This document shows positions 1 to 22,003 of a DNA stretch of 38,955 bases, piece after piece (the stretch's first letter is position 1; every line of letters begins with the position of its first letter). A program made the translations under genes and the position numbers. The stretch is from a bacterium (lineage in GTDB: Bacteria > Desulfobacterota > S145-22). Where the stretch lies: assembly GCA_029934085.1 (NCBI GenBank), contig JAOZMY010000010.1, positions 1 to 38,955 on the forward strand. Reading direction: 5' to 3'. Below the pieces are notes generated by a model. The model saw nothing but the letters and a program-made list of their open reading frames with translations, ran no database searches and was not told where the DNA came from.

Positions 1-142
1 CCCTCGTCCTGTCCGTCGAGTGCCCATCGATCACGAGGATTTCATCCGCGTAAGGCTTACACCCCTCAATGATCTCGGCTATAGTCATCTCCTCATTTCT
101 TGTTGGTATGACAACCGTTACTTTTTGTTGCCCGTTCTCCAC
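1..142 (-). CDS. Family 2 glycosyltransferase, N-terminal 47 residues only (cut by window edge)
   Basis: Translating the minus strand from GTG at 142 gives an open frame to the edge with the usual start of a GT2 (dolichol-phosphate-mannose-synthase-like) transferase. A beta strand with VVIPTRNEE (about residues 10-18) is followed by EILVIDGHSTDRT (about residues 34-46), the nucleotide-binding part of the GT-A fold. The GTG start is supported by AGGAGG four bases upstream. GT2 enzymes of this type move a sugar from a nucleotide donor to a polyprenyl phosphate or nascent glycan at the cytoplasmic membrane face. It is the last visible gene of the long minus-strand glycan run. Acceptor and sugar cannot be told from 47 residues. 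Confidence 0.8.
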   Translation of the reverse strand, partial: MENGQQKVTVVIPTRNEEMTIAEIIEGCKPYADEILVIDGHSTDRTR

Positions 143-169
143 AACTCCTCCTATTTATGTTTCCTGTGT

Positions 170-198
170 AATATATGCTTTTTAGCACACTCCTTCAA
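170..198 (-). promoter_or_regulatory. Possible sigma-70 type promoter before the GT2 gene
   Basis: On the minus strand, TTGAAG (198-193) and TATATT (175-170) are separated by exactly 17 bases and lie about 30 bases upstream of the GTG start at 142. They sit in the 99-base gap between the methyltransferase stop and the GT2 start, so GT2 could be transcribed on its own as well as by read-through. This is pattern matching only. Confidence 0.35.
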
Positions 199-241
199 AA
201 TTTAGAACCTCACACTACTTTTAAACTCTTTCGCACCAGTT

Positions 242-952
242 TTAGGCCTTCCGGCATATAAATATGTTATTCGTGCCCGTGATATCTCTGTCATTCGTAT
301 TCACCATTTTTCCACTTAAAAAGATACTCGAAAAGATAAAACTCAAATAAACCATAAATATCGGCTTTGTAATAATAGGCGTTTGAGAAAAAACCTTTTC
401 GACCTTGAAATACCTTTCAAGCAGTTCGCACAGGCTATCCTTATATAAAAGATTTATGTGGTGTGGGTTGTCGAACAGACGATCCTCCACGATCTTATCC
501 GGCGAAGAAATCACCAGGATTCCATCCCGCCTCAAAACCCTTTTAATTTCGGACAAAAATCTTTCATGATCTACAAGATGCTCGATCGTCTCAATCGTCA
601 CAACAGTATCAAAATACCCCTCTTCAAAAGGGATTTCGTAAACACTTCCCACCAGATATTTCAAATTCTTACGCTCTGCTCCATATTTCAACTTCGCCGA
701 TCGGATAGCTTTCTCAGAAATATCCATACCCCAGATCACTGCATTTTCAGTCTTGACAAGAAGATCAGAACCGTAGCCATCACCGCAGGCTGTATTGAGA
801 ATTCGTTCCCCTTCTACATACCGTGACGCAAACAAGTATCTTGCTCGGTCTTTCGAGCGGGCATATCGATGAAGAAGTGAAGGTTTATCTTGACTCCTCT
901 CCTCCTCGTAAATCTTTCCCCGAGATAGTATTTTATTGAAAAAGCCTTTCAT
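242..952 (-). CDS. Class I SAM-dependent methyltransferase
   Basis: A 236-residue soluble protein with a Methyltransf_11/25 type Rossmann core. Motif I is ILNTACGDGYG (residues 51-61), the acidic end of strand 2 is WGMDIS (74-79), and the post-II/III region holds FDTVVTIETIEHL and an RVLRRDGILVISSP strand. Such enzymes transfer a methyl group from S-adenosylmethionine to a small molecule or sugar. Its position between a membrane spermidine-synthase-like gene (30 bases upstream) and GT2 suggests a glycan or lipid-linked acceptor, but nothing in the sequence fixes the substrate. A hydrophobic stretch near residues 195-215 could help membrane association. Start ATG at 952; the Shine-Dalgarno is weak. 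Confidence 0.85.
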   Translation of the reverse strand: MKGFFNKILSRGKIYEEERSQDKPSLLHRYARSKDRARYLFASRYVEGERILNTACGDGYGSDLLVKTENAVIWGMDISEKAIRSAKLKYGAERKNLKYLVGSVYEIPFEEGYFDTVVTIETIEHLVDHERFLSEIKRVLRRDGILVISSPDKIVEDRLFDNPHHINLLYKDSLCELLERYFKVEKVFSQTPIITKPIFMVYLSFIFSSIFLSGKMVNTNDRDITGTNNIFICRKA

Positions 953-982
953 CTTTCACTCTTAATACTCAAAACAAGTTAC

Positions 983-3364
983 TCACATTTCCTTCAAAAC
1001 AAGTAAGGCACTCAAGTAAAGAATACTTGCAAAAACGAGAACGGCCGAAAAACCCCAATAAAGAGCCATTAGTACCGTCAATACCGAGCCAACGACCGTT
1101 GCGAATCCATTGATCCCCCAAACCCAACCCACAAGATTTTTTGAGCGCTCGTGCACCAAAACCAATCCAAGCGGGAAAGGCATCCCCATAACGATTCCCA
1201 GCGGGAACAGAAGCAATACCGTTATAATAGCCTTAACTGCAAAGGGCGATCCAAGGAAAATCGGAAAAACTTTGGGAATCAAGAGCATCAATCCCATACT
1301 AACGAGGAATATGAGAGGGAAAACAATCTTTAGAGACGACTTTATTCTCTGCTGAAATCTTTCTGCGATAAAACTACCAACACCAGTAAAAAACAGAAGG
1401 ATTGCGATAATCAAGCTTATGGAAATCGCTGGATATCCCAGAAAAAGCACAAACTGCTTCATGAGACACAACTCGATCATGATAAAACCCATCCCCAGGA
1501 TGGTGAAATAATACAAAAAAGGCCATTTCTTATACTCGTTAGTCTCCCTTTTGCCAACCCAAAGCAATGGAATGAAAATGAAAAAGAACGACATCACAAT
1601 GCTCTCTATAGCCAGTGAAAACACGGGAAGATCCGACTTGGTAATGACTCTTCCCCCTTCCTTTCCCATCTTCTTAGCAAAAAGTTTATAAATCCATTTT
1701 AACTCTGTCACCATAAATGGATTCTGCTTATCAATCAACGACCCCATTTTTAAAAAGTGATTGAAAAAAGGCTTGTCATCCGTCGGAGGCGATAGTTCGA
1801 AACCAGCAAAACGATAGTAAGCTTCCGGGTTATCTCCCTTTAAAATTTTGGCGTACAAGTTCTCTTCTTTTGTCATGTGGGGGTGATATAATACCTTGAA
1901 ATGCTTGATCTTGGCATATTCCTTAATCCACCCGACCTCTTTCTCGCTAAAAGGTGAGTTTTTGTAGTAAAATCCGTTCAGCATCCAGGTCTCACCTGTT
2001 AAAATAGCCACGTGTTTCCATACGTCTTTTCGCCCCAACTCTTCGAAAGCTTTCCTCAAGGTAGTGCAAAGTCTCACACTTCCCCAGCGATTCAACGCCA
2101 AAAAACCGTCCGGAGTTAGGTGCTTGATATAATCCTTGAAACCTTCCACGGTAAGGAGATATGTTTCCGACAGGTTGATAGAACCAGAGGCAATAGCAAT
2201 AGGGGTAAAATTGTTCTTCATTTGGATGAGATCATACTTATCATCCGTATTAATGACAAAACTCCTCCCCTCATCATTGTGGAGATGGACGTCTTTCCGC
2301 CTAAAAAGATTTCGATTGTATTGCCTAAAATTATCCCTCACGATCTTGCAAATCAAAGGATCCATCTCCACCGCATCCACGAGACTGCTACGATGACTCA
2401 AAGCGTAAACAACCTCCGTCCCACCGGATGAGCCAATAATCATCACCCTTGGTTTTTTATGACGCATGAAGATATAAGGGAAGTTGATTGACTCCCCCCA
2501 ATTGGGTCTTTTGATCGCTCCCTCATTGGGCCCCAAAACAGCAAGAAACGACTGATTCTGTCCACCGTTAATCCAGATTTGAGCCCGTATGTTGTCTCCT
2601 ACTTTTCTTCCAATTACATCAATCTTCGAAAGAGGACTCCAACCGGAGAAAAAGACCGTTTGGCTCTTAACAAGTCTTGTAAAGTTACGCTTGTTTTGAT
2701 GCGGATAAATTTTAAAAATCTTTTCCGAGACAGGAATCAAAACAAGAATCCCGATGAACACCAATGCGAAAAATACCTTCATCGGCGCAAGCAACCTTCC
2801 TTCCAAGAAAACAATCGAAGCCACAACACCTAACAACGCTGAAAACAGCAAAGTTCCAGTGGCTCCTAAAGGCGTAATCAGCAGGATAATAACCAAAGAT
2901 CCTATCGAGGCACCAACCAAGTCAAAAAAGTATAATCTATTCACTTCCTTTTTGCTGGATGACAAAAGGATAGAAATAGACAGCCCAGCAAAGAAAAACG
3001 GTGCCATAATTGAGATAAAAATAATAGCGAGATAAACCCATGTCCTAAGCTTATCAAATCGACTCACATCCAACGGCACCCAAATAATCATCAGAAGGCT
3101 AAAGATAGCTGTCACGGCAAAGCAAAAGGAGAAAACAGATACCCTGCGGCCCCTGTTCTCCGCGGTATTAAGTCTCTGAAAAATATAGAGAAACACGCCC
3201 GCTACCCCAAAACCAAACAGGGCCGTCGACACGATCATAAAAGCGTAATTCGACCAAACCGTATACGAAAAAATCGACGTCAACACCACTTCGTAAAGCA
3301 AGGTTCCCATTGCCAGGAAGAAAATACCCCATAGTTTCCTATCTTTGATTATCTCAAATCCCAT
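983..3364 (-). CDS. Membrane-embedded spermidine-synthase-like protein
   Basis: A 793-residue protein in three parts: about seven N-terminal membrane helices (residues 10-215), a cytosolic SpeE-like Rossmann domain (about 225-590), and a further block of six or seven helices (about 595-793). The SAM-binding loop is seen at RVMIIGSSGGTE (306-317) with EMDP at 333-336 closing strand 2. Where true aminopropyltransferases carry a catalytic YDVIxxDxxDP motif, this protein has YDLIQMKNNFTP (377-388), so the catalytic aspartates are missing and polyamine synthesis is unlikely. Proteins of this architecture are known as transmembrane spermidine-synthase-like proteins of unclear function. GGAGAAGG lies just before the ATG at 3364, and the gene follows the GT-C gene by 17 bases, so it belongs to the same transcript. 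Confidence 0.82.
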   Translation of the reverse strand: MGFEIIKDRKLWGIFFLAMGTLLYEVVLTSIFSYTVWSNYAFMIVSTALFGFGVAGVFLYIFQRLNTAENRGRRVSVFSFCFAVTAIFSLLMIIWVPLDVSRFDKLRTWVYLAIIFISIMAPFFFAGLSISILLSSSKKEVNRLYFFDLVGASIGSLVIILLITPLGATGTLLFSALLGVVASIVFLEGRLLAPMKVFFALVFIGILVLIPVSEKIFKIYPHQNKRNFTRLVKSQTVFFSGWSPLSKIDVIGRKVGDNIRAQIWINGGQNQSFLAVLGPNEGAIKRPNWGESINFPYIFMRHKKPRVMIIGSSGGTEVVYALSHRSSLVDAVEMDPLICKIVRDNFRQYNRNLFRRKDVHLHNDEGRSFVINTDDKYDLIQMKNNFTPIAIASGSINLSETYLLTVEGFKDYIKHLTPDGFLALNRWGSVRLCTTLRKAFEELGRKDVWKHVAILTGETWMLNGFYYKNSPFSEKEVGWIKEYAKIKHFKVLYHPHMTKEENLYAKILKGDNPEAYYRFAGFELSPPTDDKPFFNHFLKMGSLIDKQNPFMVTELKWIYKLFAKKMGKEGGRVITKSDLPVFSLAIESIVMSFFFIFIPLLWVGKRETNEYKKWPFLYYFTILGMGFIMIELCLMKQFVLFLGYPAISISLIIAILLFFTGVGSFIAERFQQRIKSSLKIVFPLIFLVSMGLMLLIPKVFPIFLGSPFAVKAIITVLLLFPLGIVMGMPFPLGLVLVHERSKNLVGWVWGINGFATVVGSVLTVLMALYWGFSAVLVFASILYLSALLVLKEM

Positions 3365-3381
3365 TCCTTCTCCTTCAAGTT

Positions 3382-5100
3382 TTATTCAGGCTTTACTTTA
3401 AAAAGTATGGCCCAAGCATTTTTAATTCTATATCGTTCCATCAAAACCAATCGTTCTTTAATGAATCGACGTCCTAATGGTCGCATTAACATCTTGAGTT
3501 CGGCGTCACGGTTCCCTCTCCATAAAAACACGTGGGTAAAATGATAAGTTTCATAAGGCTGCTTTTCATTCAACCACCCTGAGGCTACCAGCAAAGCCCT
3601 ATTCTTATTCTCCATACATACCATAGGGGACCAAAGACCCACGATGACCCCATCTTTCACCAAATCCCCCACCCTTCTCGAGGTATTAATCTCATCAAAT
3701 GTGGGGTGGGAAACCCATTTTGCATACAGCTTCACATTGTGGAACAGCGAAATAACAAGAAACGACAGGATAATTACCGTCCGACCCAGCCTAAAGCGCC
3801 CCTTCACCTGGGCAAGAAACCTCAATACAACCAAAACAGTTATGATTACAACAGCGAGTCCGAGGGCAACTAATCCCTCCGTCTTGTCGAAATGAATATA
3901 CTTACCGCCTAAGAAAACTGTTAGGCAAATCCACGCCACAAACAAAACAGAAAACACCTTATGATTCAAAACTTCAGAATATTCAAGTTCGTAAAAAAAA
4001 CGACAGGCCAGCCACGCCAAAATGGCCACAGGAGGAACCAGAGATATAAAGTACCGGGGAGGCCTATAATGTAAGCCAGAAACAGCGAAATACCCGATCA
4101 CAAACCATCCCAGGATAAGAACTTCAAAGGCCGTAATCTCTTCCGAACCAATAATAAACCGATAGAAAGAAATGGGGAAATATAACCACGCAAGGAGAAG
4201 GACAAACGGGAACCATCTGAAATGCTTAAAGACGATGGGCGAATACTTGCCAAAAACACGAGAGACATATTCCCCCATATCCCTTGGCATCGCGAGCCGC
4301 TTCCAGCTTGCCGAAAAACGGCTGATTTCCCCATGATTAGGGATATAAAACACGATCAACCAAATCAATCCCGCCACTCCAACACCCAAGATAAAAGGAA
4401 AGGCCATTTTTACACCATAGCTCAAACATTCTTTGAAACCTCCTCCTCGATTTTGGAGCATCCTTTTTTCCCTAAAAAAATGGAAGACATAGGAAGCAAA
4501 CAAAATAGTTAAAAAATAGATTGCCGTTGGTTTACAGCTGAAAACCCCTACCGAGGCAAAAGCTGAAAAAAACATCGCAACCTTGTAGCGTTTTCCCAAT
4601 ACCCAAAGAAACAACGAAAGGATCATCCAATTCGTCAACATGGCATCCGACAGACTGATCCTCGTATACATAAGAAAGAAATAATTAGCCTCAAGAAAGC
4701 AAAATCCCAGAAGCGCCCACAAAAAAGACCGGCTTTCAAAATATAAAGCCCAAAAAAACAGAATCATACTTAAACCCGCCCACAACAAAGGAACCATCCT
4801 CAGGGCCTTAAATCCAGTTCCGAGGATCGTGAAAGAGGCAAAATCAAAGAAAGTTAAAATAGGATTGAACAGATACGGATTCCACTCATCCGTTACCCAT
4901 TTGCCAAACAATACCTTATTGCGCGCATTATGAGCATACATGAATTCATCGCCATAAAGACCCCCGCTCCAGCTTAAGTCTGCCGGAGGATCGGCCAATA
5001 AATGAACCGTTCGTGCGGCAAAAAAAATGGAAAACACCAAGATCAAACCAATCAATAAAAGATATCCTGGCTTTTGCCCCTTGAGTAAAGAAAGGCTCAT
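3382..5100 (-). CDS. GT-C family glycosyltransferase (PMT/ArnT-like, GT39/GT83 type)
   Basis: A 572-residue polytopic membrane protein with about 12 predicted helices. The first periplasmic loop carries the acidic pair typical of polyprenyl-phosphate-sugar transferases: LYGDEFMYAHNAR places Asp51-Glu52 shortly after the first helix, as in PMT and ArnT proteins. Family members move a sugar from a polyprenyl phosphate carrier to an acceptor outside the cytoplasmic membrane. The short soluble C-terminal end (about 460-572) is smaller than in ArnT. Its ATG overlaps the stop of the upstream hydrolase gene (ATGA, 5097-5100), showing translational coupling. Acceptor unknown; the operon suggests a surface glycan or lipid. 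Confidence 0.85.
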   Translation of the reverse strand: MSLSLLKGQKPGYLLLIGLILVFSIFFAARTVHLLADPPADLSWSGGLYGDEFMYAHNARNKVLFGKWVTDEWNPYLFNPILTFFDFASFTILGTGFKALRMVPLLWAGLSMILFFWALYFESRSFLWALLGFCFLEANYFFLMYTRISLSDAMLTNWMILSLFLWVLGKRYKVAMFFSAFASVGVFSCKPTAIYFLTILFASYVFHFFREKRMLQNRGGGFKECLSYGVKMAFPFILGVGVAGLIWLIVFYIPNHGEISRFSASWKRLAMPRDMGEYVSRVFGKYSPIVFKHFRWFPFVLLLAWLYFPISFYRFIIGSEEITAFEVLILGWFVIGYFAVSGLHYRPPRYFISLVPPVAILAWLACRFFYELEYSEVLNHKVFSVLFVAWICLTVFLGGKYIHFDKTEGLVALGLAVVIITVLVVLRFLAQVKGRFRLGRTVIILSFLVISLFHNVKLYAKWVSHPTFDEINTSRRVGDLVKDGVIVGLWSPMVCMENKNRALLVASGWLNEKQPYETYHFTHVFLWRGNRDAELKMLMRPLGRRFIKERLVLMERYRIKNAWAILFKVKPE

Positions 5101-6077
5101 TTGTTCACATCCACCCTTTTACTCCTTTTGACCCTTCTCAGGATATCTTTCAACGCGGGCTCATCATTCCTAAGCCACGCATCAATCGTCACTACAAGAA
5201 TATGTATCGCCACGGGAAAAACCACTTTCGTCCCGTTAGCCGTTCCTATCCAGTGATTCGTGGGTAAGATGATATGGTCTTTCCGGTTCAAGACGTAAAT
5301 ATCTTTAACAAAGCGTGTCAGATAAGCGATATCCTTCGGTTCTTCATAAGTCCCCTCGATAAAGAGGATGGGTTTCAAAAAAATAAAATTCCTGTAACTC
5401 TCGATAACGATCGGTAAAGTAACCTCTTTCAACAAAGGCAGTGAAATCGAAATCTTTTTTGACATATCCTCATGCATACGATCCAAAATCCACTGCAATC
5501 CAAGAGGTGCCTTTTCCTTGAAAAATAACTCGTTCACTCTTCTTCCGGGAGAAATGGACACAATTTGTGAAATCCTATGGTCTCTCACTCCTGCACTGAC
5601 AGCCACACCTCCACCCATGGAATGACCTATCATGATGATTTCCTTCATGGGAGGCGTCAGTTTTTCAAGGGTGGTTATAGCGGAGATGGCATCCTCGGTA
5701 AAATCGAGGTCTTTGAATGAAGTGACCCTGTCCGGACCCTCGGATTTTCCGTAACAGCGAAAATCAAATGTGAGACAAGCATATCCCAATTTTGCGAACC
5801 GCTTGCATATTTCCGGGAACAATATATTACTACATCCCTTATCATTCGCTCCCGGACATAGAACGATTCCTTTACCATTGAAATCCTTCTTTCCAGGGAA
5901 AAAGTAATTGCCATAAAGCTTGTAAGGACCACTTTTAAAATAGACACTTTCCCCCATAATCTTCCCGTTTGCACTACCAAAAGAAAGTAGAGGAAAGAAA
6001 AGAGAAAAAAGCAGAATTAAACCTCCATAAAGAGGTGCTCTCAAGGTCGTTCTATTCAAGAAACTTCTCACCTTCAT
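5097..6077 (-). CDS. Exported or membrane-anchored alpha/beta hydrolase
   Basis: A 326-residue protein of the alpha/beta hydrolase superfamily. Residues 14-36 are hydrophobic and look like an uncleaved signal anchor or signal peptide. The nucleophile elbow GHSMGGG (151-157) gives Ser153, the DFRCYGKSEG segment (105-114) is the usual strand-loop of serine aminopeptidase/esterase-like members, and the oxyanion region lies around LCPGANDKG (73-81). A late DHIILP segment may supply the catalytic His, which I cannot assign firmly. The N-terminus overlaps the end of the upstream YbhN-type gene by 26 bases. In this cluster it could deacylate or trim the product, an inference from context only. Confidence 0.82.
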   Translation of the reverse strand: MKVRSFLNRTTLRAPLYGGLILLFSLFFPLLSFGSANGKIMGESVYFKSGPYKLYGNYFFPGKKDFNGKGIVLCPGANDKGCSNILFPEICKRFAKLGYACLTFDFRCYGKSEGPDRVTSFKDLDFTEDAISAITTLEKLTPPMKEIIMIGHSMGGGVAVSAGVRDHRISQIVSISPGRRVNELFFKEKAPLGLQWILDRMHEDMSKKISISLPLLKEVTLPIVIESYRNFIFLKPILFIEGTYEEPKDIAYLTRFVKDIYVLNRKDHIILPTNHWIGTANGTKVVFPVAIHILVVTIDAWLRNDEPALKDILRRVKRSKRVDVNK

Positions 6078-7041
6078 CCACTATTTCTGAAATCGCCTCC
6101 TTTTCTCCCTTCCGCAACATATAAATTAAACCACCAATTAAAGCATAAAATAGTATCATAACAAACGCCATCCACGCAATGGCCAGGCTCTTTTCCGGTG
6201 ACACCGAAACCTTGGCAAAAAAATAGACAAACAGGTTTTCACGGACGCCGATGCCATTGATCGATACTGGAAGCATGGACAGGAGAAAAATCACCGGGAT
6301 GACCACCATGAAAAAGCTAAAGGGAAGATCCAGAGAAAAGGCGATGGATAATAGATAGTAGTGCAAAATAAACAAGAGTTGGAGAGCCAGCCCCAACAAA
6401 ATCACCTTCACTAAAGGCCAGGGATGCGAGCGAAATTGAACAAGGATGTCAAGAACCGTGGAAATCTTGTGAACGATTGCCTTTCCGATCCGGAAGGGAA
6501 TCTTACGCTCTAAAAAGGCCAGATCGATCCCCTCTTTCCAGAGGAAAATAACCATCCCAACAACAAGAAAACCGAGGACGAACACCGGCCAATAGGAAAC
6601 CTCTTTGAACCTTCCTATCTGAAGGGCAATCCCAGTACTCACCAACATGAGCAGCACAAGGATTCCGGTGAATCGCTCGAACAGGATAATTGTCAGAGAT
6701 TTGGTCAAGGATCCGCAGGGCTTCGCCGTATCCATACCCCGCACCACATCCCCACCCACAATCGTGGGCAGGAACTGGTTGAAAAAGGTCCCCACCAGGT
6801 AGGATTTGATCGTTAAGCTCAGGGGGACATCCACCCCTTGCGCCTTCAGTAGCACCTTCCAGCGTTCTCCACTGACCCAGTACCCAAAGATATGCAGCAA
6901 AAGCGCGGCCAGCAACCACCATCCTTTGGCCCGCTGAACAATCTCCCAAACCTTAGCGATATCGACCTTATAGACGATCCATCCAATCAGGATAATACTA
7001 ACGGGGATCTTGATGAAGACCGTGCTCTTGAACCCCTTCAT
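6052..7041 (-). CDS. YbhN/AglD-type (UPF0104, LPG synthase TM region) membrane protein
   Basis: A 329-residue integral membrane protein with about eight helices. The family hallmark is visible in KSYLVGTFFNQFLPTIVGGD followed by RG, roughly residues 75-96, and in GIGVRENLFVYFF near the C-terminus. These proteins match the transmembrane half of MprF; family members are proposed to move lipid-linked compounds across the membrane or assist glycosyl transfer (AglD, YbhN). A longer reading frame runs upstream to 7086, but the ATG at 7041 is chosen because it forms an ATGA overlap with the acyltransferase stop. A second copy of the fold occurs at 8783-10600 fused to a methyltransferase. Confidence 0.85.
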   Translation of the reverse strand: MKGFKSTVFIKIPVSIILIGWIVYKVDIAKVWEIVQRAKGWWLLAALLLHIFGYWVSGERWKVLLKAQGVDVPLSLTIKSYLVGTFFNQFLPTIVGGDVVRGMDTAKPCGSLTKSLTIILFERFTGILVLLMLVSTGIALQIGRFKEVSYWPVFVLGFLVVGMVIFLWKEGIDLAFLERKIPFRIGKAIVHKISTVLDILVQFRSHPWPLVKVILLGLALQLLFILHYYLLSIAFSLDLPFSFFMVVIPVIFLLSMLPVSINGIGVRENLFVYFFAKVSVSPEKSLAIAWMAFVMILFYALIGGLIYMLRKGEKEAISEIVDEGEKFLE

Positions 7042-7781
7042 GACCTCTCCGCCACAACCTTTGCGGGAATCCCCGCCACCACACAATTCTTCGGCACGTC
7101 CTCCGTCACCACAGCGCCTGCCCCGATCACGGACCCGCTATGAACGGTAACCCCATCCAGGATGGTGACCCTCGCCCCGATCCAGACGTTATCCTCAACA
7201 ACGATCCCCCCCTTATGGAGATTGGGCTGTTCGATGATGGGAATGTCCAACCGGCTGTAATCGTGGTTTCCGCCGCCCACGATATAGGTATAGGCGGCAA
7301 TGATCACCTCATCTCCGATTTCAACCTTCTCCTCGGAATGAATAAGGCAGTTCTGGGCGATGTTCGTGTGATTCCCTACCTTGATATATCCCCCCTTACA
7401 GCTCAGGATATTGTTGCGGCTGATCACCACCTCGTCTCCGACGGTAATCCGTCCCGACTCTACTCCCTTGGCATCGAGAACCACGTTGTCGTCTACCACG
7501 ACCCGGCTCCCGACAAAGATCTTCGAGGGGTTTCGGATCATCATGTTCCTTCCAAAGGCCGTCCCCCTCCCCACAGATCCCATCATCCAGGGATATGTTA
7601 CCTTCCTAAGCCAATATCCCACCGCTCCCGGAACCGGTGCGGCAAACATCATAAGGCACTCGTAACGAAACAGTTCCCACCATCCCCCTCGTCCAATAAC
7701 CAATTCCCGGTACTTGGCGAAGCTGGAACGATTATCCGCCGTCAAAAGATGGCCGAATTCCGTCTGTTTACGTTCGCTCAT
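7038..7781 (-). CDS. Left-handed beta-helix (hexapeptide) O-acyltransferase
   Basis: A 247-residue protein whose residues about 85-240 follow hexapeptide rungs ([LIV]-G-x4): for example VGSRVVVDDNVVLDA, VGDEVVISRNN, VGNHTNIAQNC, IGDEVIIAAYT, and a final IGAGAVVTEDVPKNCVVAGIPAK. The GGGNHDYS segment after the third coil holds the His expected to act as catalytic base in acetyltransferases of the WcaF/LpxA-like group. It probably transfers acetyl or another acyl group from acyl-CoA to a sugar hydroxyl or amine of the glycan. About 60 N-terminal residues precede the helix and contain a hydrophobic segment. It lies between the epimerase (3 bases upstream) and the YbhN-type gene (4-base overlap). 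Confidence 0.9.
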   Translation of the reverse strand: MSERKQTEFGHLLTADNRSSFAKYRELVIGRGGWWELFRYECLMMFAAPVPGAVGYWLRKVTYPWMMGSVGRGTAFGRNMMIRNPSKIFVGSRVVVDDNVVLDAKGVESGRITVGDEVVISRNNILSCKGGYIKVGNHTNIAQNCLIHSEEKVEIGDEVIIAAYTYIVGGGNHDYSRLDIPIIEQPNLHKGGIVVEDNVWIGARVTILDGVTVHSGSVIGAGAVVTEDVPKNCVVAGIPAKVVAERS

Positions 7782-7784
7782 CGT

Positions 7785-8777: not shown

Positions 8778-8782
8778 TCCCT

Positions 8783-13195: not shown

Positions 13196-13216
13196 CACTT
13201 TAACGCCCTACAGGTT

Positions 13217-13279
13217 TTCACCTTTTACCCTTCACCTCTTACCTTTTGCCTCTCGCCTTTCCCCTACTACCTATTACCT
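13217..13279 (-). repeat. Degenerate heptamer tract, consensus AGGTRAA (sense strand)
   Basis: On the minus strand, nine heptamers follow one another without a register slip: AGGTAAT, AGGTAGT, AGGGGAA, AGGCGAG, AGGCAAA, AGGTAAG, AGGTGAA, GGGTAAA, AGGTGAA. The first part lies inside the radical SAM gene and encodes its last dozen residues, and the sixth unit contains the TAA stop (13241-13239). The rest is in the gap. A period of 7 is not a multiple of 3, so the tract passes through all reading frames. Confidence 0.85.
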
Positions 13280-14735
13280 TTTTCCTTACATATCTCCACC
13301 CCAACATCCACACGTGCTTGAAATCTTCCCACGACCGCACGTTCCTCAAAACCTCTGGAAGCTTCTTCCAGGGGGAGATACCCTGATACTGCGCCCACTG
13401 AAGGGTCAGATCCGACAGTTCGTCCCAACTCAATCGGTCGATGAAAATAGGGGATTCCCCGTGGGCGGCACTGAACTGATTGGGAACCGGCTGGTCGTCC
13501 CGGGACCAGGAAAAATCCTCGGGAAGAATTCCCCGTTCGCGTGCTACCTCCTCGATACGCGTCCCCGGATAGATGCGCAGTAAGCTCATGGAGGCAATCC
13601 CACCCACCTTTTTCATGAAGTTTAGGGTCTCTTCGGCATCTTCCCGCGTCTCATCGGGAAAGCTGATAATATATCCAGGATTCTTCTCGATTCCCAAATC
13701 GTCCAGCCACTTAGATACGTTTTCCACCTGTTCCAGTGTAATCTGTTTCTGGCAAACCTCATCCAAGATCCTCGGCGATCCCGATTCCACACCAAAAAAG
13801 ACCTTAAAACAACCCGCGTCCCGCATCTTCTTCAACAGGTCATAATTGACGGTGTCCACCCGAATGGAACAGGTAAAGGCAATATCCAGTTTCCGCTCCA
13901 TGATCCCATCACAGATGGCCTCAACGCGGCGTTTGTTCATGGTAAAGGTATCGTCATAAAACCAAACCGCCTTGACCTTCGGCTGCTTCTGAAGGATGTC
14001 TTCCAATTCGGCCAACACATTTTCCGGAGACCGGTGCCGCCAGCGCCGTCCCGAAAGCTTACTTGTGGCACAGAAAGAACAGTGGAAGGGACAACCACGG
14101 CTGGTGATGATGTGGGCGGCCGGCAGGCTCCCCTTGCCCGGCACATCAAGTCGAAAGTCATACCGGTCCATATCCATCAAATGCCGGGCCGGAAACGGCA
14201 AGGCATCCAGATCGGCGGGTAGCTCCGCGGGAAGGTTGTGTATGATCTCCCCGTTCTTTCGATAACTGATCCCACGAATGCCGGAGAGATCCTTCCCTTC
14301 CCATAAGGCGTAACAGAGCTCCAGGAAGGTGTATTCCGCCTCTCCTCGCACCACCACGTCGATCTCGGGCTGAAAGCGCATGGTATCGTCCGCCGTAAGG
14401 GAAACATGCGGTCCTCCCATCGTGATGGGAACCTCCTTCTCCAGAACTTCCCGCGCGATCCGCGCCGTTTGGAATGCCTCATAACGAAACTCCGTCAATG
14501 AGGTGATCCCGACGATATCCGGTGAAATCTCTTTGATCCTCTTTTTGAGTTTCCGCCAGGAAAGATGCTCCACCGCCGCGTCCAGAATCTCCACGGGAAT
14601 CCCGTCCCGCTCCAGCATGGCGGCAAGATAGATCAAGCCCAGGGCCGGAAGGGGTTCCTTCGATGAAAATCCCTTGGGGGGAAAGATGAGAAGAACCTTT
14701 GGAAGACTAATGAGTGAAACCTCCTTCTTGCGCAA
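13239..14735 (-). CDS. B12-binding domain radical SAM protein (BchE/HpnJ-like)
   Basis: A 498-residue protein. Residues about 13-150 form a cobalamin-binding-like Rossmann domain (KVLLIFPPKG, then LDAAVEHLSW, GITSLTEFRYEAF and MGGPHVSL), although the classical DxHxxG motif is not evident. The radical SAM core starts near 205 with Cys215, Cys219 and Cys222 (SRGCPFHCSFC). Family members catalyse methyl transfer to unactivated carbons, ring contraction or ring formation. The frame opens at TTG 14735, overlapping asnB by 29 bases; a strong AGGAGG inside that overlap points instead to ATT at 14711, nine codons in. The last dozen codons and the stop are built from a heptamer repeat tract, giving a Lys/Arg/Gly-rich tail. 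Confidence 0.87.
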   Translation of the reverse strand: MRKKEVSLISLPKVLLIFPPKGFSSKEPLPALGLIYLAAMLERDGIPVEILDAAVEHLSWRKLKKRIKEISPDIVGITSLTEFRYEAFQTARIAREVLEKEVPITMGGPHVSLTADDTMRFQPEIDVVVRGEAEYTFLELCYALWEGKDLSGIRGISYRKNGEIIHNLPAELPADLDALPFPARHLMDMDRYDFRLDVPGKGSLPAAHIITSRGCPFHCSFCATSKLSGRRWRHRSPENVLAELEDILQKQPKVKAVWFYDDTFTMNKRRVEAICDGIMERKLDIAFTCSIRVDTVNYDLLKKMRDAGCFKVFFGVESGSPRILDEVCQKQITLEQVENVSKWLDDLGIEKNPGYIISFPDETREDAEETLNFMKKVGGIASMSLLRIYPGTRIEEVARERGILPEDFSWSRDDQPVPNQFSAAHGESPIFIDRLSWDELSDLTLQWAQYQGISPWKKLPEVLRNVRSWEDFKHVWMLGWRYVRKKVIGSRGKARGKR

Positions 14736-16635
14736 AATGATCTTTCCACAGCCGGAACACCAGAAGTCCCCAGAGACGATGGCTATGATTCGCTTCCCCG
14801 TTCACATGCTCCTGGATCAAGCGGTTCACCGTCTCCCACCGGAAAATCCCCTCTTCCCTGACGGAACGCTCATCCAGCGTGTCCATCAGAAACTCCTTCA
14901 TGGGACCCTTTAGCCAGTTCTTGATGGGTATGCTAAATCCCTGCTTGGGACGTTGAAGAATCTCCTCGGGCAGGTAAGGGGTCATGGCCTTCTTGAAGAT
15001 ATACTTTGTCTCCTTCATCCCGCGGAGTTTGAGGTCGCCGGGGAGGGAGAAGGCCCATTCCACCACCTTGTGATCCAGGATGGGAACCCTTACCTCCAGT
15101 GAGGTGGCCATGCTCATCCGGTCCACCTTGGGCAGGATATTATCGGTCAGATACGTCTTGACATCCGTGTAAAGAAGCCGATTCAAGGCATCTTTTCCAG
15201 GGTAGCTTTCCATGATCCTCATTATACAGGCCTGGGTCTCCTTCGACAACGCCTCGGCCGCATCTCCCTGATAGAGCGACTGTTTCTGGTCATCATCCCA
15301 GAAGGTCATCCAACGAACATGGCCTAAAGCCTCCGGCAGGGCTATCCCCTCGAAGAAGCGGCTCAGATAATTGGCCATCCCCTTCTTCTTCTCCGTGACA
15401 GGAATAGCCGATGCTAATGCCTTACTGGCCTTCCTTCTCATCCCTTCGGGAACGACACTTAGATATCTCGCCAGCCGTTCCGCCACGTAGGTTTCGTATC
15501 CGGCAAAAAGCTCGTCCCCTCCGTCTCCGGAAAGGATAACGGTCACATATTCACGTGCCATCTTGGAGACGAGATAAGTAGGAAAGATGGAAAAATCTCC
15601 GATGGGATCGTCCATGTGGTGAATGAGCTTCGGCAACAGATCCAGAACATCCGGCTGAATGACGAACTCTGTGTGCTCTGTTCTATACCGTTTCCGGACC
15701 ATCTCCACATATCTCCCCTCGTCATAGGTCCGGTCTTCAAATCGGATGGAAAAGCTCCGGATGGGGAGATCCGAGGCCTGGCTCATCATGGCCACCACAC
15801 TGCTGGAATCGACCCCACCGCTCAGAAAAACGCCAAGGGGAACATCGCTGATCATCCGCATCCGGACGGATTCCTCCAACACCTCCACCAGTTCTTGCTT
15901 CAGGGCCTCCTCTTTTAGGTCCCGGCGCGTTTCCCCCGGCACCTCCCAATAACGCTCCACACGGATGGTGCCCTTCTCGTAAATCATGGCGTGCCCCGGC
16001 GGGAGCTTCCGGATTCCCTTGAAAAGGGTCATGGGGCTGAAGATGTACTCGTGGGTCAGGAAGGCATCCAGGGCCTGAAGATCAAGGGAAAGATCTAACC
16101 CCTCCCCGAAGGCAAGAATCGCCTTGATCTCGGAGGCAAAGATCAGGCCTTTCGCTGTTGAAGCGTAATAAAGCGGCTTGATCCCAACACGGTCTCTCGC
16201 CAGGAACAGGCGTTGACGTTTCTTATCGAGAAAGGCGAAGGCGAACATCCCCCGCAGCTTTTCACAAAGTCCTTCCGGATCCTCTTCATAGAGATGCAGA
16301 AGAACCTCCGTGTCGCTCCTGGACCGAAAGGTGTGTCCTTTTCCCTTCAGCTCGGGAATAAAATCCTGGAAGTTGTAAACCTCTCCGTTATAGGTGATCC
16401 AGAGAGACCCATCCTCGTTGCTCATGGGCTGATGCCCCGCGGGGGAGAGATCGATGATGGAAAGCCGGCGATGTCCCAAACCCACGATCCCCGCATCCCC
16501 ATCCAGGGGAAAGAGCCGGGCCTCACCATCATCCGGGCCCCGGTGACGCAGCAAGGCCGTCATCCTCTCCAGGCGTTCCTGAAGAACCTCCCTCGACTCA
16601 TGATGGGTTGTGAAAAAACCGCAGATTCCGCACAT
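14707..16635 (-). CDS. asnB: Asparagine synthetase (glutamine-hydrolysing) type amidotransferase
   Basis: A 642-residue class II glutamine amidotransferase plus synthetase. The start is ATG 16635 because processing exposes Cys2 (MCGICGF) as the nucleophile; the glutaminase domain (2-200) shows HRGPDD (31-36), the HRRLSIIDLS loop and YNGEVYN. The synthetase domain has the ATP pyrophosphatase loop LSGGVDSS (271-278) and ends with a C-terminal region after PKQGFSIPIKNWL. The classical reaction converts Asp, ATP and Gln to Asn. Inside glycan and exosortase-type clusters, paralogues are thought to amidate other carboxylates, which fits this location between radical SAM genes. Seven bases separate it from the upstream gene. 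The gene symbol refers to the family, not to a proven housekeeping role. Confidence 0.88.
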   Translation of the reverse strand: MCGICGFFTTHHESREVLQERLERMTALLRHRGPDDGEARLFPLDGDAGIVGLGHRRLSIIDLSPAGHQPMSNEDGSLWITYNGEVYNFQDFIPELKGKGHTFRSRSDTEVLLHLYEEDPEGLCEKLRGMFAFAFLDKKRQRLFLARDRVGIKPLYYASTAKGLIFASEIKAILAFGEGLDLSLDLQALDAFLTHEYIFSPMTLFKGIRKLPPGHAMIYEKGTIRVERYWEVPGETRRDLKEEALKQELVEVLEESVRMRMISDVPLGVFLSGGVDSSSVVAMMSQASDLPIRSFSIRFEDRTYDEGRYVEMVRKRYRTEHTEFVIQPDVLDLLPKLIHHMDDPIGDFSIFPTYLVSKMAREYVTVILSGDGGDELFAGYETYVAERLARYLSVVPEGMRRKASKALASAIPVTEKKKGMANYLSRFFEGIALPEALGHVRWMTFWDDDQKQSLYQGDAAEALSKETQACIMRIMESYPGKDALNRLLYTDVKTYLTDNILPKVDRMSMATSLEVRVPILDHKVVEWAFSLPGDLKLRGMKETKYIFKKAMTPYLPEEILQRPKQGFSIPIKNWLKGPMKEFLMDTLDERSVREEGIFRWETVNRLIQEHVNGEANHSHRLWGLLVFRLWKDHFAQEGGFTH

Positions 16636-16642
16636 GTCACAC

Positions 16643-17740
16643 CTACTTCTTCCGTTTCCCGCGATAGGAGATAAAACAGCATCCCTCGCACCCGGGAAAG
16701 ATCTCCGCCTCCCGCAATTTTCGGCGAAACTCCCGAAAAACAGGACCGTTCCACGCCTCGTCGAAAGACTTCTCCAGAAGATTCCCGCAGTTGATACTGT
16801 AACAGGGAAAAAGGTTCCCCGTCGGACCGATATGGGCCGTGGACCACGGCACGTAGCACCCGTAATCCTCGATGTGAACCGCATTTTGGTAACGCTTTAC
16901 GATCTCCTCCGGCGGTAGGATGGGGTTGAACCGGATTTCGAACGGAACCTTTTTGCGCCGTTCCTCAATCTTCGCAAGCTGCGTCCTCAGGGCGTCAATC
17001 TTGGTAAACCTGACCGGCGGCGGGGGCGTCTGGTAAGCCTCTTCCGGAACATCCTCGATCCCGTAGGAGGAATCCTGGGTATTAACGATCTGGAATGTGC
17101 AGAAATCCGCCCCCATCTCTTCGGCCAAATCCACCAGCTTGTCCATCTGCTCCACGTTCTCATCGGTAATAACCGACTTGATGTCGAGAAGCGGGAGAGA
17201 CTTTCCCCACTTCTTCCTCTCCTCCCTAAATTTCAAGAGATTCGCCCGAACCTTGTCAAAGGCCCCTTTCACCCGCACCACCGCGTCATGGACCTCCCCG
17301 ATCCCCTGCACGGAAACACCCACAAGGATCAATCCTTTTTGAAAAACCCGTTTCGGCGCGAGAGCCAAAAGCTGGCTGATCTTCTCGTCGTTCAGCAACA
17401 CCCCGTTCGTAATCACATTGATACGATGGTTCCGAGAGGCATGATGCATCAGGTCGATGATATCCCTCCTGACAAACGGCTCCCCTCCCGTAAAGGTAAT
17501 CAAGGTCCGGGAGGGAATCTTATGGAGAATGAGCTTCAGCTCGTTCGTGCTCAAGTCCTTCTCCCGCAACTCCGCCTCTCGCTCCACGATCATGCACATG
17601 GCGCACCGGAGATTACAACGATGGGTCACCATAAGGGCGACTCGAAGGGGCGTAAAGGCCCGTCCACTCTTAACGAAATGATAGGGAACCAGCGCCGTTG
17701 AAAGGTCTATTAAGTGATAAAGCCTTCCCAGATATCCCAT
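16643..17740 (-). CDS. Radical SAM/SPASM domain protein
   Basis: A 365-residue protein with radical SAM ligands Cys42, Cys46 and Cys49 (HRCNLRCAMC), a TFTGGEPFVRRD motif (82-93) and TNG at 111-113. The SPASM-like end contains Cys295, Cys313, Cys318, Cys351, Cys354 and Cys355, with the PTGNLFPCYSINCGNLLEKS block followed by DEAWNG, enough ligands for one or two auxiliary clusters. This layout is typical of enzymes that modify peptides or sugars by hydrogen abstraction. Its ATG overlaps the stop of the upstream family 4 glycosyltransferase (TAATG), so the two are translationally coupled. Substrate unknown. Confidence 0.87.
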   Translation of the reverse strand: MGYLGRLYHLIDLSTALVPYHFVKSGRAFTPLRVALMVTHRCNLRCAMCMIVEREAELREKDLSTNELKLILHKIPSRTLITFTGGEPFVRRDIIDLMHHASRNHRINVITNGVLLNDEKISQLLALAPKRVFQKGLILVGVSVQGIGEVHDAVVRVKGAFDKVRANLLKFREERKKWGKSLPLLDIKSVITDENVEQMDKLVDLAEEMGADFCTFQIVNTQDSSYGIEDVPEEAYQTPPPPVRFTKIDALRTQLAKIEERRKKVPFEIRFNPILPPEEIVKRYQNAVHIEDYGCYVPWSTAHIGPTGNLFPCYSINCGNLLEKSFDEAWNGPVFREFRRKLREAEIFPGCEGCCFISYRGKRKK

Positions 17741-18954
17741 TAATGCTTCTCCTTAAGAATTTCTTGAATCTTCCCAAACAAGGTCTTCATCTTTTCCATA
17801 TAAGCCGCATTGCTGTAGCTCGCCTCTGCCACGCTCTTCGCCCTCATGGCCCGCTGCTCGGCTGCCTCCGGATTATTCAAGGCCTCCAGGACACCTGCGG
17901 CGAACTCTTCAGGGGACAACTCGGTCAAAAAGGCCGTTTCATCACTCAGAACCTGCGTGTGAGTCAGGTGTCGGGTCGCGACAATCGGCCTTCCCGATTT
18001 CATGTAGCTGTAAATCTTCAAAGGCGTATTGACTCCCTGCTTCCTGACGGAAACCAACAGGGTGCAGGCCTCAATGTAACACGGGATCTCTTCAGGGGGA
18101 AGATTCCCGGTAAAGTGGATATTTTTCTGTATGCCCCGCTCATCTACAAGCCGGCGAACCTCTTCAACCTGCGCCGGACTTCCCCCCACGAGGACAAAAT
18201 GAACATCCGGTCTCTTCTCCAACACCCCCGCCGCCGCCTCAACCAATATATCCAGCCCCTGATACGCTTCGAATGTTCCCGCGTACAGGACCATAGGGGC
18301 ATCTCCAATCCCCAAGCCTCCACGGATTTTCGCCGCTTTTTCGGCCTCACAAGACACCTTCTCCTGATCCGTGTAGGTATTCTCTATCAACAACGGTTCC
18401 TTATCCGGCACCACAGACTTTACCACGTCACTCAAATGGGGACAGATCGTGATGATGATATCAGAATTCCGCAGCGTAAGACGCTCCAGCCATGTGAACA
18501 CCCTAACCACAAATCGGTTCTTGGTATATTCAAAGTTTTCGAACTGCTCCGGCAGGCTCGAATGCATGTCATACACGTGGGGAAGCCGCCATATCTTTCT
18601 CGCCAAGACCCCGATGAGACATCCCTCCTCGTGTGTGTGGATGAAATCGTAGCGTCCCCGGATCAGCATCCAGATGGCCCGGAAAAAGAGGAAGAAATCG
18701 AGATAAATCTTGGTTAGGGAAGGACCGACCGGGACATTTTTCACACCCGGTGGGCGGAAACTCCGATGGATCGTGAGGCCGGGAATCTCCTTATCTTCTC
18801 CGATGGGATAAGCCAACAGGTCCACCTGAAGCCCCATAGACGAATAGGCCTTGATCCTGTAATACTCGCTGAACGGCGTTCCCCTCGGCTGAAAAAATGG
18901 CTCCGGGGCAATCATCAAGACCCGGAGGCCATTTGTTGTTTTTCTTTCTTCCAT
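17740..18954 (-). CDS. Family 4 glycosyltransferase (GT-B fold)
   Basis: A 404-residue GT-B protein. The N-terminal half begins with VLMIAPEPFFQPRGTPFSEY (about 13-32), a glycine-containing acceptor-side loop seen in GT4 enzymes of exopolysaccharide and exosortase loci. The C-terminal donor half contains VLYAGTFEAYQGLDILVEAA (about 219-238) and a VSVRKQGVNTPLKIYSYMKSG segment in place of the usual EGFGL-type nucleotide-sugar motif. It adds a hexose or similar sugar from a nucleotide donor at the inner face of the membrane. Start ATG 18954 with AGGA upstream; 64 bases separate it from the stop of the 994-residue membrane protein. Confidence 0.88.
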   Translation of the reverse strand: MEERKTTNGLRVLMIAPEPFFQPRGTPFSEYYRIKAYSSMGLQVDLLAYPIGEDKEIPGLTIHRSFRPPGVKNVPVGPSLTKIYLDFFLFFRAIWMLIRGRYDFIHTHEEGCLIGVLARKIWRLPHVYDMHSSLPEQFENFEYTKNRFVVRVFTWLERLTLRNSDIIITICPHLSDVVKSVVPDKEPLLIENTYTDQEKVSCEAEKAAKIRGGLGIGDAPMVLYAGTFEAYQGLDILVEAAAGVLEKRPDVHFVLVGGSPAQVEEVRRLVDERGIQKNIHFTGNLPPEEIPCYIEACTLLVSVRKQGVNTPLKIYSYMKSGRPIVATRHLTHTQVLSDETAFLTELSPEEFAAGVLEALNNPEAAEQRAMRAKSVAEASYSNAAYMEKMKTLFGKIQEILKEKH

Positions 18955-19018
18955 TTATCATTCCTACCCACCTCATCATGCAGGCGGGAAATCCATTAGA
19001 AATTAAGGGGATTTTATA

Positions 19019-22003
19019 TCACGGACCAGATATTCTTGCAACCTCGACACGATCGACCCAGAGGATCCCCCTCCCCTGGTAATAGACGGGAAACCGCATG
19101 ATGGACGGACGCTTCAACACGAATCTCAGAGAGAAGCTCACCACCTTTCCGGTGGAACCAAAATCTCCCAAGGCCACCCTCTTTTCCGCAAGCACCTCTC
19201 TCTGATGGCCACGTGCCACGCGCAGGATGGCCATGGGTAACTCGGGCCGTTCGCTTCCCTCCACAGCCAGGTAAAACGTCGCCGTGTAACGTCCCGACAT
19301 CAACCGATGCAGGGGGCCACCCACGCCCCGGTCGTTGAGAACCTCCGGCGAAAAACGCACCCCCATCCCGCTTCCATCCGGAAGGGGACGAGTCGGGGCC
19401 AGGTGGAACAGATCCTCCGCCTGGAAAACCGCGGGGCCCTCCCCTTTCCCCCTGAACGCGATGAAGACGTAATCGAGGCAAAGAGAGGCCTTACCGTTGG
19501 AATAGACGACACACTCGATCTTCTGGGCACTGGGAACGTGAAAGGCAAATCGGATGTCCGAATATTCACCACCCTTCAGGTCTTCCGGGGAAATCTCCCT
19601 TTTCGTCAAGGTCACCCGCCGGTGACGGCCGGTCACCAGAAGGGCCGCCAGGGCCTCCTCCCCATTGCACTCCTTCCCATTGGCCAATTTTATCCGGGCC
19701 ACCCCCTCGTACCATCCGCGGGGAAAGAACCGTTTCTGGTTACCCATCATCATTCCCCGCTTCTCCGACTCAGAAACCAGGAGGGCCTTGCCCGCCGAAG
19801 CCTTGGGGTCCGAAACAACCTTCCCAATGAGGTGCCGGCTCCGTTCTGCCTCCCAGAGCACCCCCACCGGGGAATCGATCGCCTCCAGGGCATCTGGCTC
19901 GAGCGGACGATCCAAACCCGCTTCATCGACCCGGAAAAGAAACTTGTCATCCGATGTGCGAATCTCCTTCAGAAACGGCAGCGTCCGCAGCCGCTTCAGC
20001 GTCATCCATGATGGAAACGGGCAGATCTTATAGGGATAGGCGTTTGCGTGAAACGTTACGTACTTGACACGGAGCCGTCGGAGCATCGCCCTCGCCTTCT
20101 CACTCGGCTCCCCCACGTCCATGGGATAAAGCCCATAAAAGACCTCATCCACATAGTCTTTCGCCACCACCGGAGAATACCCGTTGACCATGGGGTACCG
20201 GTATCGGGTCACGTAATACTGATAGAGGGTAGACCAGGCGGAATCCCCCGGCCAGACGGGAAGCTCCAGAAGGGTTCGGGGCGGCATCCCCTCCTTTTCC
20301 ATCCCGTCATAGACGGTTGCCCCCCGTTCCAGGAGGCAGAGCCCCAAAGGGCGGGGAGGAAGATAATCAACCACGATACCAACGGCGGCAAGCAGGGCCA
20401 GCCCCCACTTCCACCCGTCCCTCTTCAAGGGCAGGCGGTCCAAACCCCATGCCACGCAAAAAGCCATAGCGGCATAGGCAATGAAGATAATCCTCCCCGG
20501 AACACGTGGATACTTGAAATAGGGAATCACCTTGTAGAAGAAGGCGTAGAGGGGAACCTGCGGCACCGACAACCCGAGGGAAAGGAAGGTGAAAAAGAGA
20601 AACGACCCGAGCCAGAAAGCCGCTTGCCCGTCACCCTTTCCCTCCCTACGGCGGTGCCAAACAAACACGCCACCGCACAGAAGCACCAGCGCCAAGGCCA
20701 CCATCCCCAGGTAGAGCATCGACTCCCCCTGATAGTTGGTCCTCCGAAGCAGATCTCCCCAATGGGGAGAGAAATAGCGAACCTCGGCCAGACGCCGCCC
20801 CCGCTCGGCAATCGTCCCCCCAAGGACGAATTTCTTGATGGCTATGACGATCCCCCCCGACAAGATAACCAGCGGAAGAAGCGGAAGAAACCGCCCAATG
20901 GCCCTTCGCACCACGGAACCTTCCAAGCCAACCCCTATCAAGTCTCTCCAAAAGCGGACAAAATTTATCCCGACCAGGATCACGACTATAGCGAAAAGGA
21001 GGTGTCCATACTGGGGAATGGGAAGCCAAAACTTCACGGGATAGAGAATCAACAAGGCAAGGGGGAGAAAGAGGGAGGCGAGTCGCCTGCTCACGGTCCC
21101 CGCGTCAGTGCGGGTCACGCCCGCCACGATTCCGGCAAGGGCACGGAAGAGAAAGCAGGCCCCCACGGCAAAGACCGGAACGAGAAATGGATAGGTCGTG
21201 TGGTAGGGCCATCCCTTCTGAAAGGCGAAAACGGCCACGCCGACCCCGAGTCCAGCTCCCTCAAGGAGGAAAAGAAGGGTTCCGTCTCCCCCTCCCGTTC
21301 CCTCCTCCTCGGGGACCACGATCCTTTTCAGCAGGAAGAGGCCGTAGGGAACAAGAAAGAGGACCGTGTAATAAAACATGTGATATTCCGTCCACGCCAT
21401 CAAAATCAGCGTAATCCCCACGAGGATCGGATACCGCTTCTTCGAAGACCGCACCATCCCCTCGGCGAAGTAAAGCAGCATGGGAAAGGAAAAATAGAAA
21501 AGCCCGTTGATGTGGCCGCACATCTGGCTGAGCCGGTGGGGCGCCAGCGCAACGACCATCCCCCCCACTACCGCGGGAAAGAAAGAAATCCCCGTCCTTC
21601 GCAGCCACAGAAAGGTGAATCCTCCCGCCAAAACAAACGAGAGGAGAAAAACCAGGTTGAAGGCAATCACATCTCCAAGGGGAGAAAAGGCGGCAAAAAG
21701 AAAGGAAAAGAGGGCGATCTGGGGGTTGAAGAACCGTTTTCCCCAGTAATAGAACTGGTAGGGATCGGAAAAGGGATTCCGAAAATGGGTTAAGTTATCC
21801 TTGAGCAGCCAGAAATTGTAGTAGAGGTTGAGATGATCCCCCATGTTCATCCGCTGCACCTCGTATCCCGGTACGGGAAAGCGGATGTAAGGGATCGAGC
21901 GGTCGAAATGGCGGATCAGAGGGACATTGTAAATCCCTCCGAGGAGAAAAAAGAATAAAAAAACCGCGAGGATTCGCCACTTTTTATCGATTCCGCTTGT
22001 CAC
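19019..22003 (-). CDS. Large GT-C/YfhO-like membrane protein with C-terminal soluble domain
   Basis: A 994-residue protein. The N-terminal half (about 10-570) contains some 12-14 membrane helices and an early loop with MGDHLNLYYNFWLLKDNL, where the Asp is placed as in GT-C glycosyltransferases. The remainder (about 575-994) is soluble and beta-rich, without a family I recognise beyond a resemblance to carbohydrate-binding folds, and probably faces the periplasm. YfhO-like proteins glycosylate teichoic acid or other surface polymers with polyprenyl-linked sugars. The start is GTG at 22003; ATG at 22005 is followed at once by TGA in its frame. A good promoter ends only a few bases upstream, so this gene is probably the head of the glycan transcript. 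Confidence 0.75.
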   Translation of the reverse strand: MTSGIDKKWRILAVFLFFFLLGGIYNVPLIRHFDRSIPYIRFPVPGYEVQRMNMGDHLNLYYNFWLLKDNLTHFRNPFSDPYQFYYWGKRFFNPQIALFSFLFAAFSPLGDVIAFNLVFLLSFVLAGGFTFLWLRRTGISFFPAVVGGMVVALAPHRLSQMCGHINGLFYFSFPMLLYFAEGMVRSSKKRYPILVGITLILMAWTEYHMFYYTVLFLVPYGLFLLKRIVVPEEEGTGGGDGTLLFLLEGAGLGVGVAVFAFQKGWPYHTTYPFLVPVFAVGACFLFRALAGIVAGVTRTDAGTVSRRLASLFLPLALLILYPVKFWLPIPQYGHLLFAIVVILVGINFVRFWRDLIGVGLEGSVVRRAIGRFLPLLPLVILSGGIVIAIKKFVLGGTIAERGRRLAEVRYFSPHWGDLLRRTNYQGESMLYLGMVALALVLLCGGVFVWHRRREGKGDGQAAFWLGSFLFFTFLSLGLSVPQVPLYAFFYKVIPYFKYPRVPGRIIFIAYAAMAFCVAWGLDRLPLKRDGWKWGLALLAAVGIVVDYLPPRPLGLCLLERGATVYDGMEKEGMPPRTLLELPVWPGDSAWSTLYQYYVTRYRYPMVNGYSPVVAKDYVDEVFYGLYPMDVGEPSEKARAMLRRLRVKYVTFHANAYPYKICPFPSWMTLKRLRTLPFLKEIRTSDDKFLFRVDEAGLDRPLEPDALEAIDSPVGVLWEAERSRHLIGKVVSDPKASAGKALLVSESEKRGMMMGNQKRFFPRGWYEGVARIKLANGKECNGEEALAALLVTGRHRRVTLTKREISPEDLKGGEYSDIRFAFHVPSAQKIECVVYSNGKASLCLDYVFIAFRGKGEGPAVFQAEDLFHLAPTRPLPDGSGMGVRFSPEVLNDRGVGGPLHRLMSGRYTATFYLAVEGSERPELPMAILRVARGHQREVLAEKRVALGDFGSTGKVVSFSLRFVLKRPSIMRFPVYYQGRGILWVDRVEVARISGP

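Follow-up and report, generated by a model that had tools for sequence, protein, structure and literature searches.

What does a bacterium make with an operon that sets three radical S-adenosylmethionine (SAM) enzymes and an AsnB-type glutamine amidotransferase among glycosyltransferases (GTs) and membrane proteins? The question is raised by contig JAOZMY010000010.1 of assembly GCA_029934085.1 (Desulfobacterota; S145-22), the window of this study being the whole stretch of 38,955 nucleotides (contig C128 of a 2.4-Mb assembly in 170 contigs, 94% complete). The locus runs on the minus strand from position 22003 to the contig end and holds 15 genes in full, followed by a GT2 gene of which only the start is present, in agreement with the sixteen co-directional genes counted in an earlier note made from the sequence alone. 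The analysis establishes the gene families, the metal-cluster motifs, the conserved order and the reappearance of a core in a second phylum, and we consider it probable on balance that the locus is a conserved operon which assembles and tailors a lipid-linked sugar or short glycan placed outside the cytoplasmic membrane; its substrate, product and reactions are suggested by gene families and context.

A conserved gene order and its recurrence

The earlier note had proposed looking for the block in other genomes, and it was found both within the assembly's family, for which six genomes were compared, and well outside it. Two of the family genomes (G003, contig C27, and G005, contig C306) keep the order GTC1-GT4-SPASM_A-AsnB-B12rSAM-SPASM_B-SGNH/PD40-YbhN/methyltransferase-epimerase-acyltransferase-YbhN at 60-89% protein identity, with order conserved over 11-14 genes at 47-89% identity, and G001, of the same genus, carries the first five genes up to its contig end. 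Since the order is kept in other metagenome-assembled genomes (MAGs), the clustering of these genes is not due to chance. The acyltransferase is 84-85% identical in the family, and the fusion of a YbhN domain to a methyltransferase is retained at 73% in G003 and G005. GTC1 is the first gene in G003, G005 and G001 too (64-71% identity) and the genes upstream of it vary: the Asp/Glu racemase and MscL genes found here are replaced by others in G001 and G005. We therefore place the 5' boundary at GTC1 and leave the racemase and MscL genes out of the operon. A promoter-like TTGACA-17-TATTTT lies directly upstream of GTC1, the count of such sites being near chance. Intergenic spacing is mostly -71 to +72 bases, with a single 118-base gap at 13121-13238.

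The 3' part behaves differently. Its GC content is 0.41-0.45 as compared to 0.47-0.62 for the core, in all three genomes; G003 has two copies of GTC2 (L025/L026) and lacks the alpha/beta hydrolase, which is present in G005; and 3' of its spermidine-synthase-like gene (69% identical) G003 carries a DUF2079 protein and then an SGNH lipoprotein. Because this part is variable and low in GC, the constant unit is 6052-22003 (about eleven genes) and 1-6077 is a variable extension, and the earlier view of all 16 genes as one unit finds no support.

The distribution beyond the family was taken from genome searches, a contig scan having yielded only three loci. The SPASM_B profile finds strong relatives in family f10, distant but within the same phylum, and there they cluster with epimerase, GT4 and AsnB, the larger loci adding YbhN, acyltransferase, PD40 or a B12 radical SAM protein. 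Within 10 kb, a Ca. Aminicenantes MAG (JAUYDS010000043.1) encodes homologues of SPASM_B (50%), GT4 (43%), the acyltransferase (43%) and the epimerase (35%). Of the 149 genomes searched in that phylum, 18 encode SPASM_B (E<1e-100), 19 B12rSAM and 29 GT4, and SPASM_B and B12rSAM are common to 17, a co-occurrence that is strong but not formally clean (Fisher p 3e-19, uncorrected for relatedness). The association is not merely one of linkage, since most of these genomes have the two genes on separate contigs and several have B12rSAM beside an SMC-type gene. Orthologues of GT4 and of the acyltransferase in this phylum are 38-47% and 42-49% identical, respectively. A maximum-likelihood tree places the family's B12rSAM in a 99/99 clade with Aminicenantes-phylum proteins, to the exclusion of same-phylum paralogues, and transfer between the two phyla is plausible.

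We also note that in four loci of the Aminicenantes phylum (L099, L101, L102 and L108) B12rSAM adjoins an SMC-like gene, a housekeeping-like position which suggests vertical inheritance there.

Gene order recurs as well. G169 has GT4-AsnB-B12rSAM-SPASM_B-methyltransferase in the same order as the window, with an AsnB 52% identical to ours, and G183, G170 and G196 have B12rSAM-GT4-epimerase-SPASM_B-methyltransferase, with the acyltransferase adjoining in G183 and G196. In all four, the methyltransferase half of the YbhN fusion stands alone beside SPASM_B (~38%), and a homologue of the spermidine-synthase-like protein (32%) lies near B12rSAM in G059. SPASM_B directly adjoins a gene for an HpnA-like short-chain dehydrogenase/reductase (SDR) in several distant loci. 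In two further loci (L079 and L092) AsnB is separated from SPASM_B by an AglJ/DPM-like GT2 and a gene resembling GT9 heptosyltransferases. L092 also includes an HpnK-like deacetylase (3126-4007; 197 bits, cut-off 233) in its SPASM_B/AsnB locus; by their families these genes point to lipid-linked sugars. The smaller core that recurs is a twitch radical SAM protein, a B12 radical SAM protein, GT4 and AsnB, often with an epimerase, acyltransferase or methyltransferase.

Enzymes of the core

SPASM_A and SPASM_B had both been described as SPASM proteins, but each has a single four-Cys auxiliary-cluster motif of the BtrN twitch type. The cysteines of SPASM_A (C42/C46/C49 and C295-C313-C351-C354) are invariant in four sequences, and all seven of SPASM_B (C39/C43/C46, as CX3CX2C, and C236-C254-C299-C302) are invariant in 11. 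Spacing of the SPASM_B auxiliary-cluster cysteines, 17-44-2, is identical to that of BtrN (PDB 4m7t; 189-207-252-255), the twitch radical SAM dehydrogenase of butirosin biosynthesis, which is also the top PDB match of SPASM_B by sequence and by fold. DesII and BlsE are also among the nearest folds; according to the published work on these three radical SAM enzymes, BtrN, DesII and BlsE act on a cyclitol or on sugar moieties. SPASM_B and BtrN share the fold class, the CX3CX2C motif and the auxiliary spacing, whereas their structural-alignment identity is ~20%, and the substrate of BtrN is a free cyclitol of an antibiotic pathway while SPASM_B sits in a glycan operon. A 36-kb plasmid of Brachyspira hyodysenteriae (NZ_CP019601.1, L115) carries six or more radical SAM/SPASM genes along with rfbF, rfbC and a glycosyltransferase; one of the radical SAM/SPASM proteins so encoded is 28% identical to SPASM_B, and by this homology the SPASM_B-type enzyme family recurs in surface-sugar loci.

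The nearest named relatives of B12rSAM are HpnJ, ApyD and BchE, with no methylation assigned; its score against the HpnJ model (NCBIfam) is 210 bits, with a cut-off of 578. Because these relatives are not one functional class, the C-methylation in the product proposed earlier, a lipid-linked, C-methylated, amidated glycan, finds no support. The rest of that proposal fares better, in that the genes form a coherent glycan or glycolipid pathway and amidation has a precedent in the AsnB family. The closest curated family of AsnB is TIGR03108 (628 bits, cut-off 817), and in Porphyromonas gingivalis mutation and mass spectrometry showed that the TIGR03108-type PGN_1234 is required for the conversion of glucuronic acid to glucuronamide in a lipid-linked sugar (PMC7468200). 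A glycan context is common to both. The AsnB open reading frame (ORF) was over-extended as listed (to 16884); a start at 16635, at the conserved MCGICGFF, leaves a 7-base gap.

Polytopic proteins GTC1 and GTC2 had been called GT-C transferases, for which Pfam, NCBIfam and PDB sequence searches gave no match. Their putative GT-C nature is read from topology, the segments in Table 1 being counted by hydropathy, and the AlphaFold model of GTC1 is unusable (pLDDT 42). Of the two YbhN/UPF0104 (LPG_synthase_TM) copies, the one that stands alone meets the TIGR00374 cut-off; unlike plain members of this family, the other is fused to a methyltransferase, and the fusion is kept across the family.

Gene content and flanking features

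The remaining assignments of the earlier note, namely GT4, AsnB, SGNH/PD40, two YbhN domains, epimerase, acyltransferase, hydrolase, methyltransferases and three radical SAM proteins, one of them B12-binding, are confirmed by Pfam (Table 1). The SGNH/PD40 protein is probably exported.

Table 1. Genes of the locus in operon order, with the evidence for each (TM, transmembrane; aa, amino acids)
Gene or product	Position	Strand	Evidence
GTC1, polytopic membrane protein (994 aa) whose C-terminal region is soluble, putative GT-C; first operon gene	19019..22003	-	no Pfam; 13 TM-like segments
GT4 glycosyltransferase	17740..18954	-	PF13692/PF00534
SPASM_A, radical SAM with twitch-like C-terminal Cys motif	16643..17740	-	PF04055+PF13186
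AsnB-type glutamine amidotransferase	14707..16635	-	PF00733/PF13537; Cys2 and SGGVDSS present
B12rSAM, B12-binding-domain radical SAM, HpnJ/BchE-like	13239..14735	-	PF02310+PF04055
SPASM_B, BtrN-type twitch radical SAM; signature gene of core	12104..13120	-	PF04055+PF13186
SGNH (GDSL) hydrolase with TolB-like PD40 propeller, N-terminal TM/signal	10584..12107	-	PF13472, PF07676; GDSI motif; TM-like 1-26
YbhN/UPF0104 (LPG_synthase_TM) flippase-like domain fused to class I methyltransferase	8783..10654	-	PF03706, PF08241
Extended SDR/HpnA-like NAD-dependent epimerase	7785..8777	-	PF01370
Left-handed beta-helix (hexapeptide) acyltransferase	7038..7781	-	PF00132
Second YbhN/UPF0104 flippase-like membrane protein; last constant-core gene	6052..7086	-	PF03706 146 bits; TIGR00374 above cut-off
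Alpha/beta hydrolase, in variable low-GC tail	5097..6077	-	PF12146
GTC2, 572-aa polytopic, putative GT-C	3382..5100	-	no Pfam; 10 TM-like segments
Spermidine-synthase-like domain in multi-TM protein	983..3364	-	PF01564 28 bits
Class I methyltransferase	242..952	-	PF08241
GT2 glycosyltransferase start, cut by contig end	1..142	-	PF00535 29.9 bits over 42 positions

Upstream of the locus, a plus-strand ORF of 440 aa (22004-23326) is the shadow of the minus-strand genes for the Asp/Glu racemase (22076-22771) and an MscL-like protein (22838-23242), and a DUF4143 protein (38118-38954, minus strand) is truncated by the right-hand edge of the contig. Scans for Rfam families and tRNAs found none in the window.

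The operon of G003, and only that one, is interrupted at the SPASM_A/AsnB junction by a PDDEXK_3 (GxxExxY) ORF (L025:5450-6540), bounded by 84-base direct repeats that are 94% identical, 597 bases apart and CGCAAAG-rich. A second gap in the same operon (L025:9926-10599) has similar repeat sequence without the ORF. The ORF and its repeats may be a small mobile unit.

Competing readings and a proposed pathway

The earlier note held that the locus matches no standard type, and the alternatives bear on this. The most serious is that we are looking at an ordinary, strain-variable O-antigen or exopolysaccharide (EPS) locus made of common families, with Wzx and Wzy lying past the contig end. The contig does end within the GT2 gene, a Wzx-family gene is present elsewhere in the genome (contig C17), the low-GC 3' tail differs between relatives, and twitch radical SAM paralogues are found in the rfb-containing plasmid locus. 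No Wzx or Wzy is among the window genes, but as the contig ends inside the locus the "no Wzx/Wzy" part of the earlier claim is not supported. What makes this explanation unlikely is that, within the family, the eleven 5' genes stay highly identical and in the same order, and that the core is found again in other phyla with phyletic profiles that match; variable O-antigen loci behave otherwise.

For three better-defined systems the curated cut-offs and genome searches decide more sharply, and as regards exosortases and hopanoids the claim of a non-standard locus stands. An XrtA/PEP-CTERM (exosortase)-type EPS locus might be suspected since TIGR03108, which is known from such loci, is the top NCBIfam match of AsnB, TIGR04063 is the top match of GT4 (104 bits, cut-off 442), and the alpha/beta hydrolase weakly resembles exosortase hydrolase 1. 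All three scores are under their cut-offs, however, and of the 12 genomes tested 11, this one included, lack exosortase (PF09721); G000, G001, G003 and G004 are among those without it, and it is present only in G005 on a contig other than the operon's. Unlike the usual setting of TIGR03108, then, our AsnB falls below the family cut-off in a genome with no exosortase, and the reading is largely refuted and very improbable. Hardly more credit is due to a hopanoid side-chain locus, responsible for instance for cyclitol ether formation. The epimerase is nearest to HpnA, B12rSAM to HpnJ and the L092 deacetylase to HpnK, all hopanoid head-group enzymes; however, all score below the cut-offs, HpnA (146 bits, cut-off 368) and HpnJ at less than half of theirs, and no full-length squalene-hopene cyclase was found in the 94% complete genome, where matches to the C-terminal part of the cyclase are partial, at repeat level, and confined to ORFs of 320-360 aa and one of 401 aa. 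We therefore reject it. Alternatively, AsnB might be a lasso-type cyclase and the radical SAM proteins peptide maturases of a ribosomally synthesized and post-translationally modified peptide (RiPP) cluster, both enzyme types being known from RiPP systems. The lasso cyclase model gives AsnB 247 bits, short of its cut-off of 525 and far less than TIGR03108; neither a RiPP recognition element (RRE) nor a leader peptidase is among the families found in the window, and the neighbours are glycosyltransferases and membrane glycan genes. On the AsnB score this idea is rejected, and it is scarcely credible.

We return to the assembly and tailoring of a lipid-linked sugar or glycan. In the cytoplasm, GT4 and the truncated GT2 would assemble the sugar on its lipid carrier. 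The BtrN-type twitch enzyme would oxidise or otherwise activate a ring carbon, and the HpnA-like SDR would reduce or invert the carbon so activated. We suggest SPASM_B and the SDR as an oxidise-then-reduce pair because their genes adjoin in several distant loci. B12rSAM might make a second radical change on the sugar, of a type we leave unspecified, AsnB would convert a sugar carboxylate to the amide, and the acyl- and methyltransferases would add decorations. The YbhN-type proteins may then carry the lipid-linked product across the membrane, outside which GTC1 and GTC2, if they are GT-C enzymes, would attach sugars drawn from polyprenyl-phosphate donors. Trimming of the product might fall to the hydrolase and the exported SGNH/PD40 protein.

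Several points weigh against this scheme. The operon has no nucleotide-sugar dehydrogenase to supply the carboxylate for AsnB; the GT-C role of GTC1 and GTC2 is putative and unproven, and a lipid linkage is suggested only by the YbhN and presumed GT-C proteins. The B12 radical SAM neighbours in f10 are not orthologous to B12rSAM (27%, a separate clade), which means that not every member of the set is constant, and every homologue found sits in uncharacterised MAGs.

More speculatively, and we think improbably, the pathway might be an ancient one, widespread in Aminicenantes-type bacteria and acquired by the family, which brings radical chemistry like that of hopanoid head groups (through its HpnA- and HpnJ-like enzymes and, in one related locus, the HpnK-like deacetylase), BtrN-like oxidation and amidation to bear on a non-hopanoid lipid-linked sugar. 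If true, this would represent a new class of bacterial glycolipid or glycan.

Our literature search, with subscription papers largely outside its coverage, found no described pathway of such composition, and this compact gene set, recurring in two phyla, has no characterised counterpart that we found. As their phyletic profiles nearly match, SPASM_B and B12rSAM offer a marker pair for locating a cultured carrier, together with a definite product to seek there. Sugars of the cell surface or membrane are, to our knowledge, little explored as targets of radical chemistry, and the locus is a conserved, uncharacterised pathway in which ordinary enzyme families meet in an unusual cross-phylum combination, its kind being lipid-linked glycan biosynthesis.

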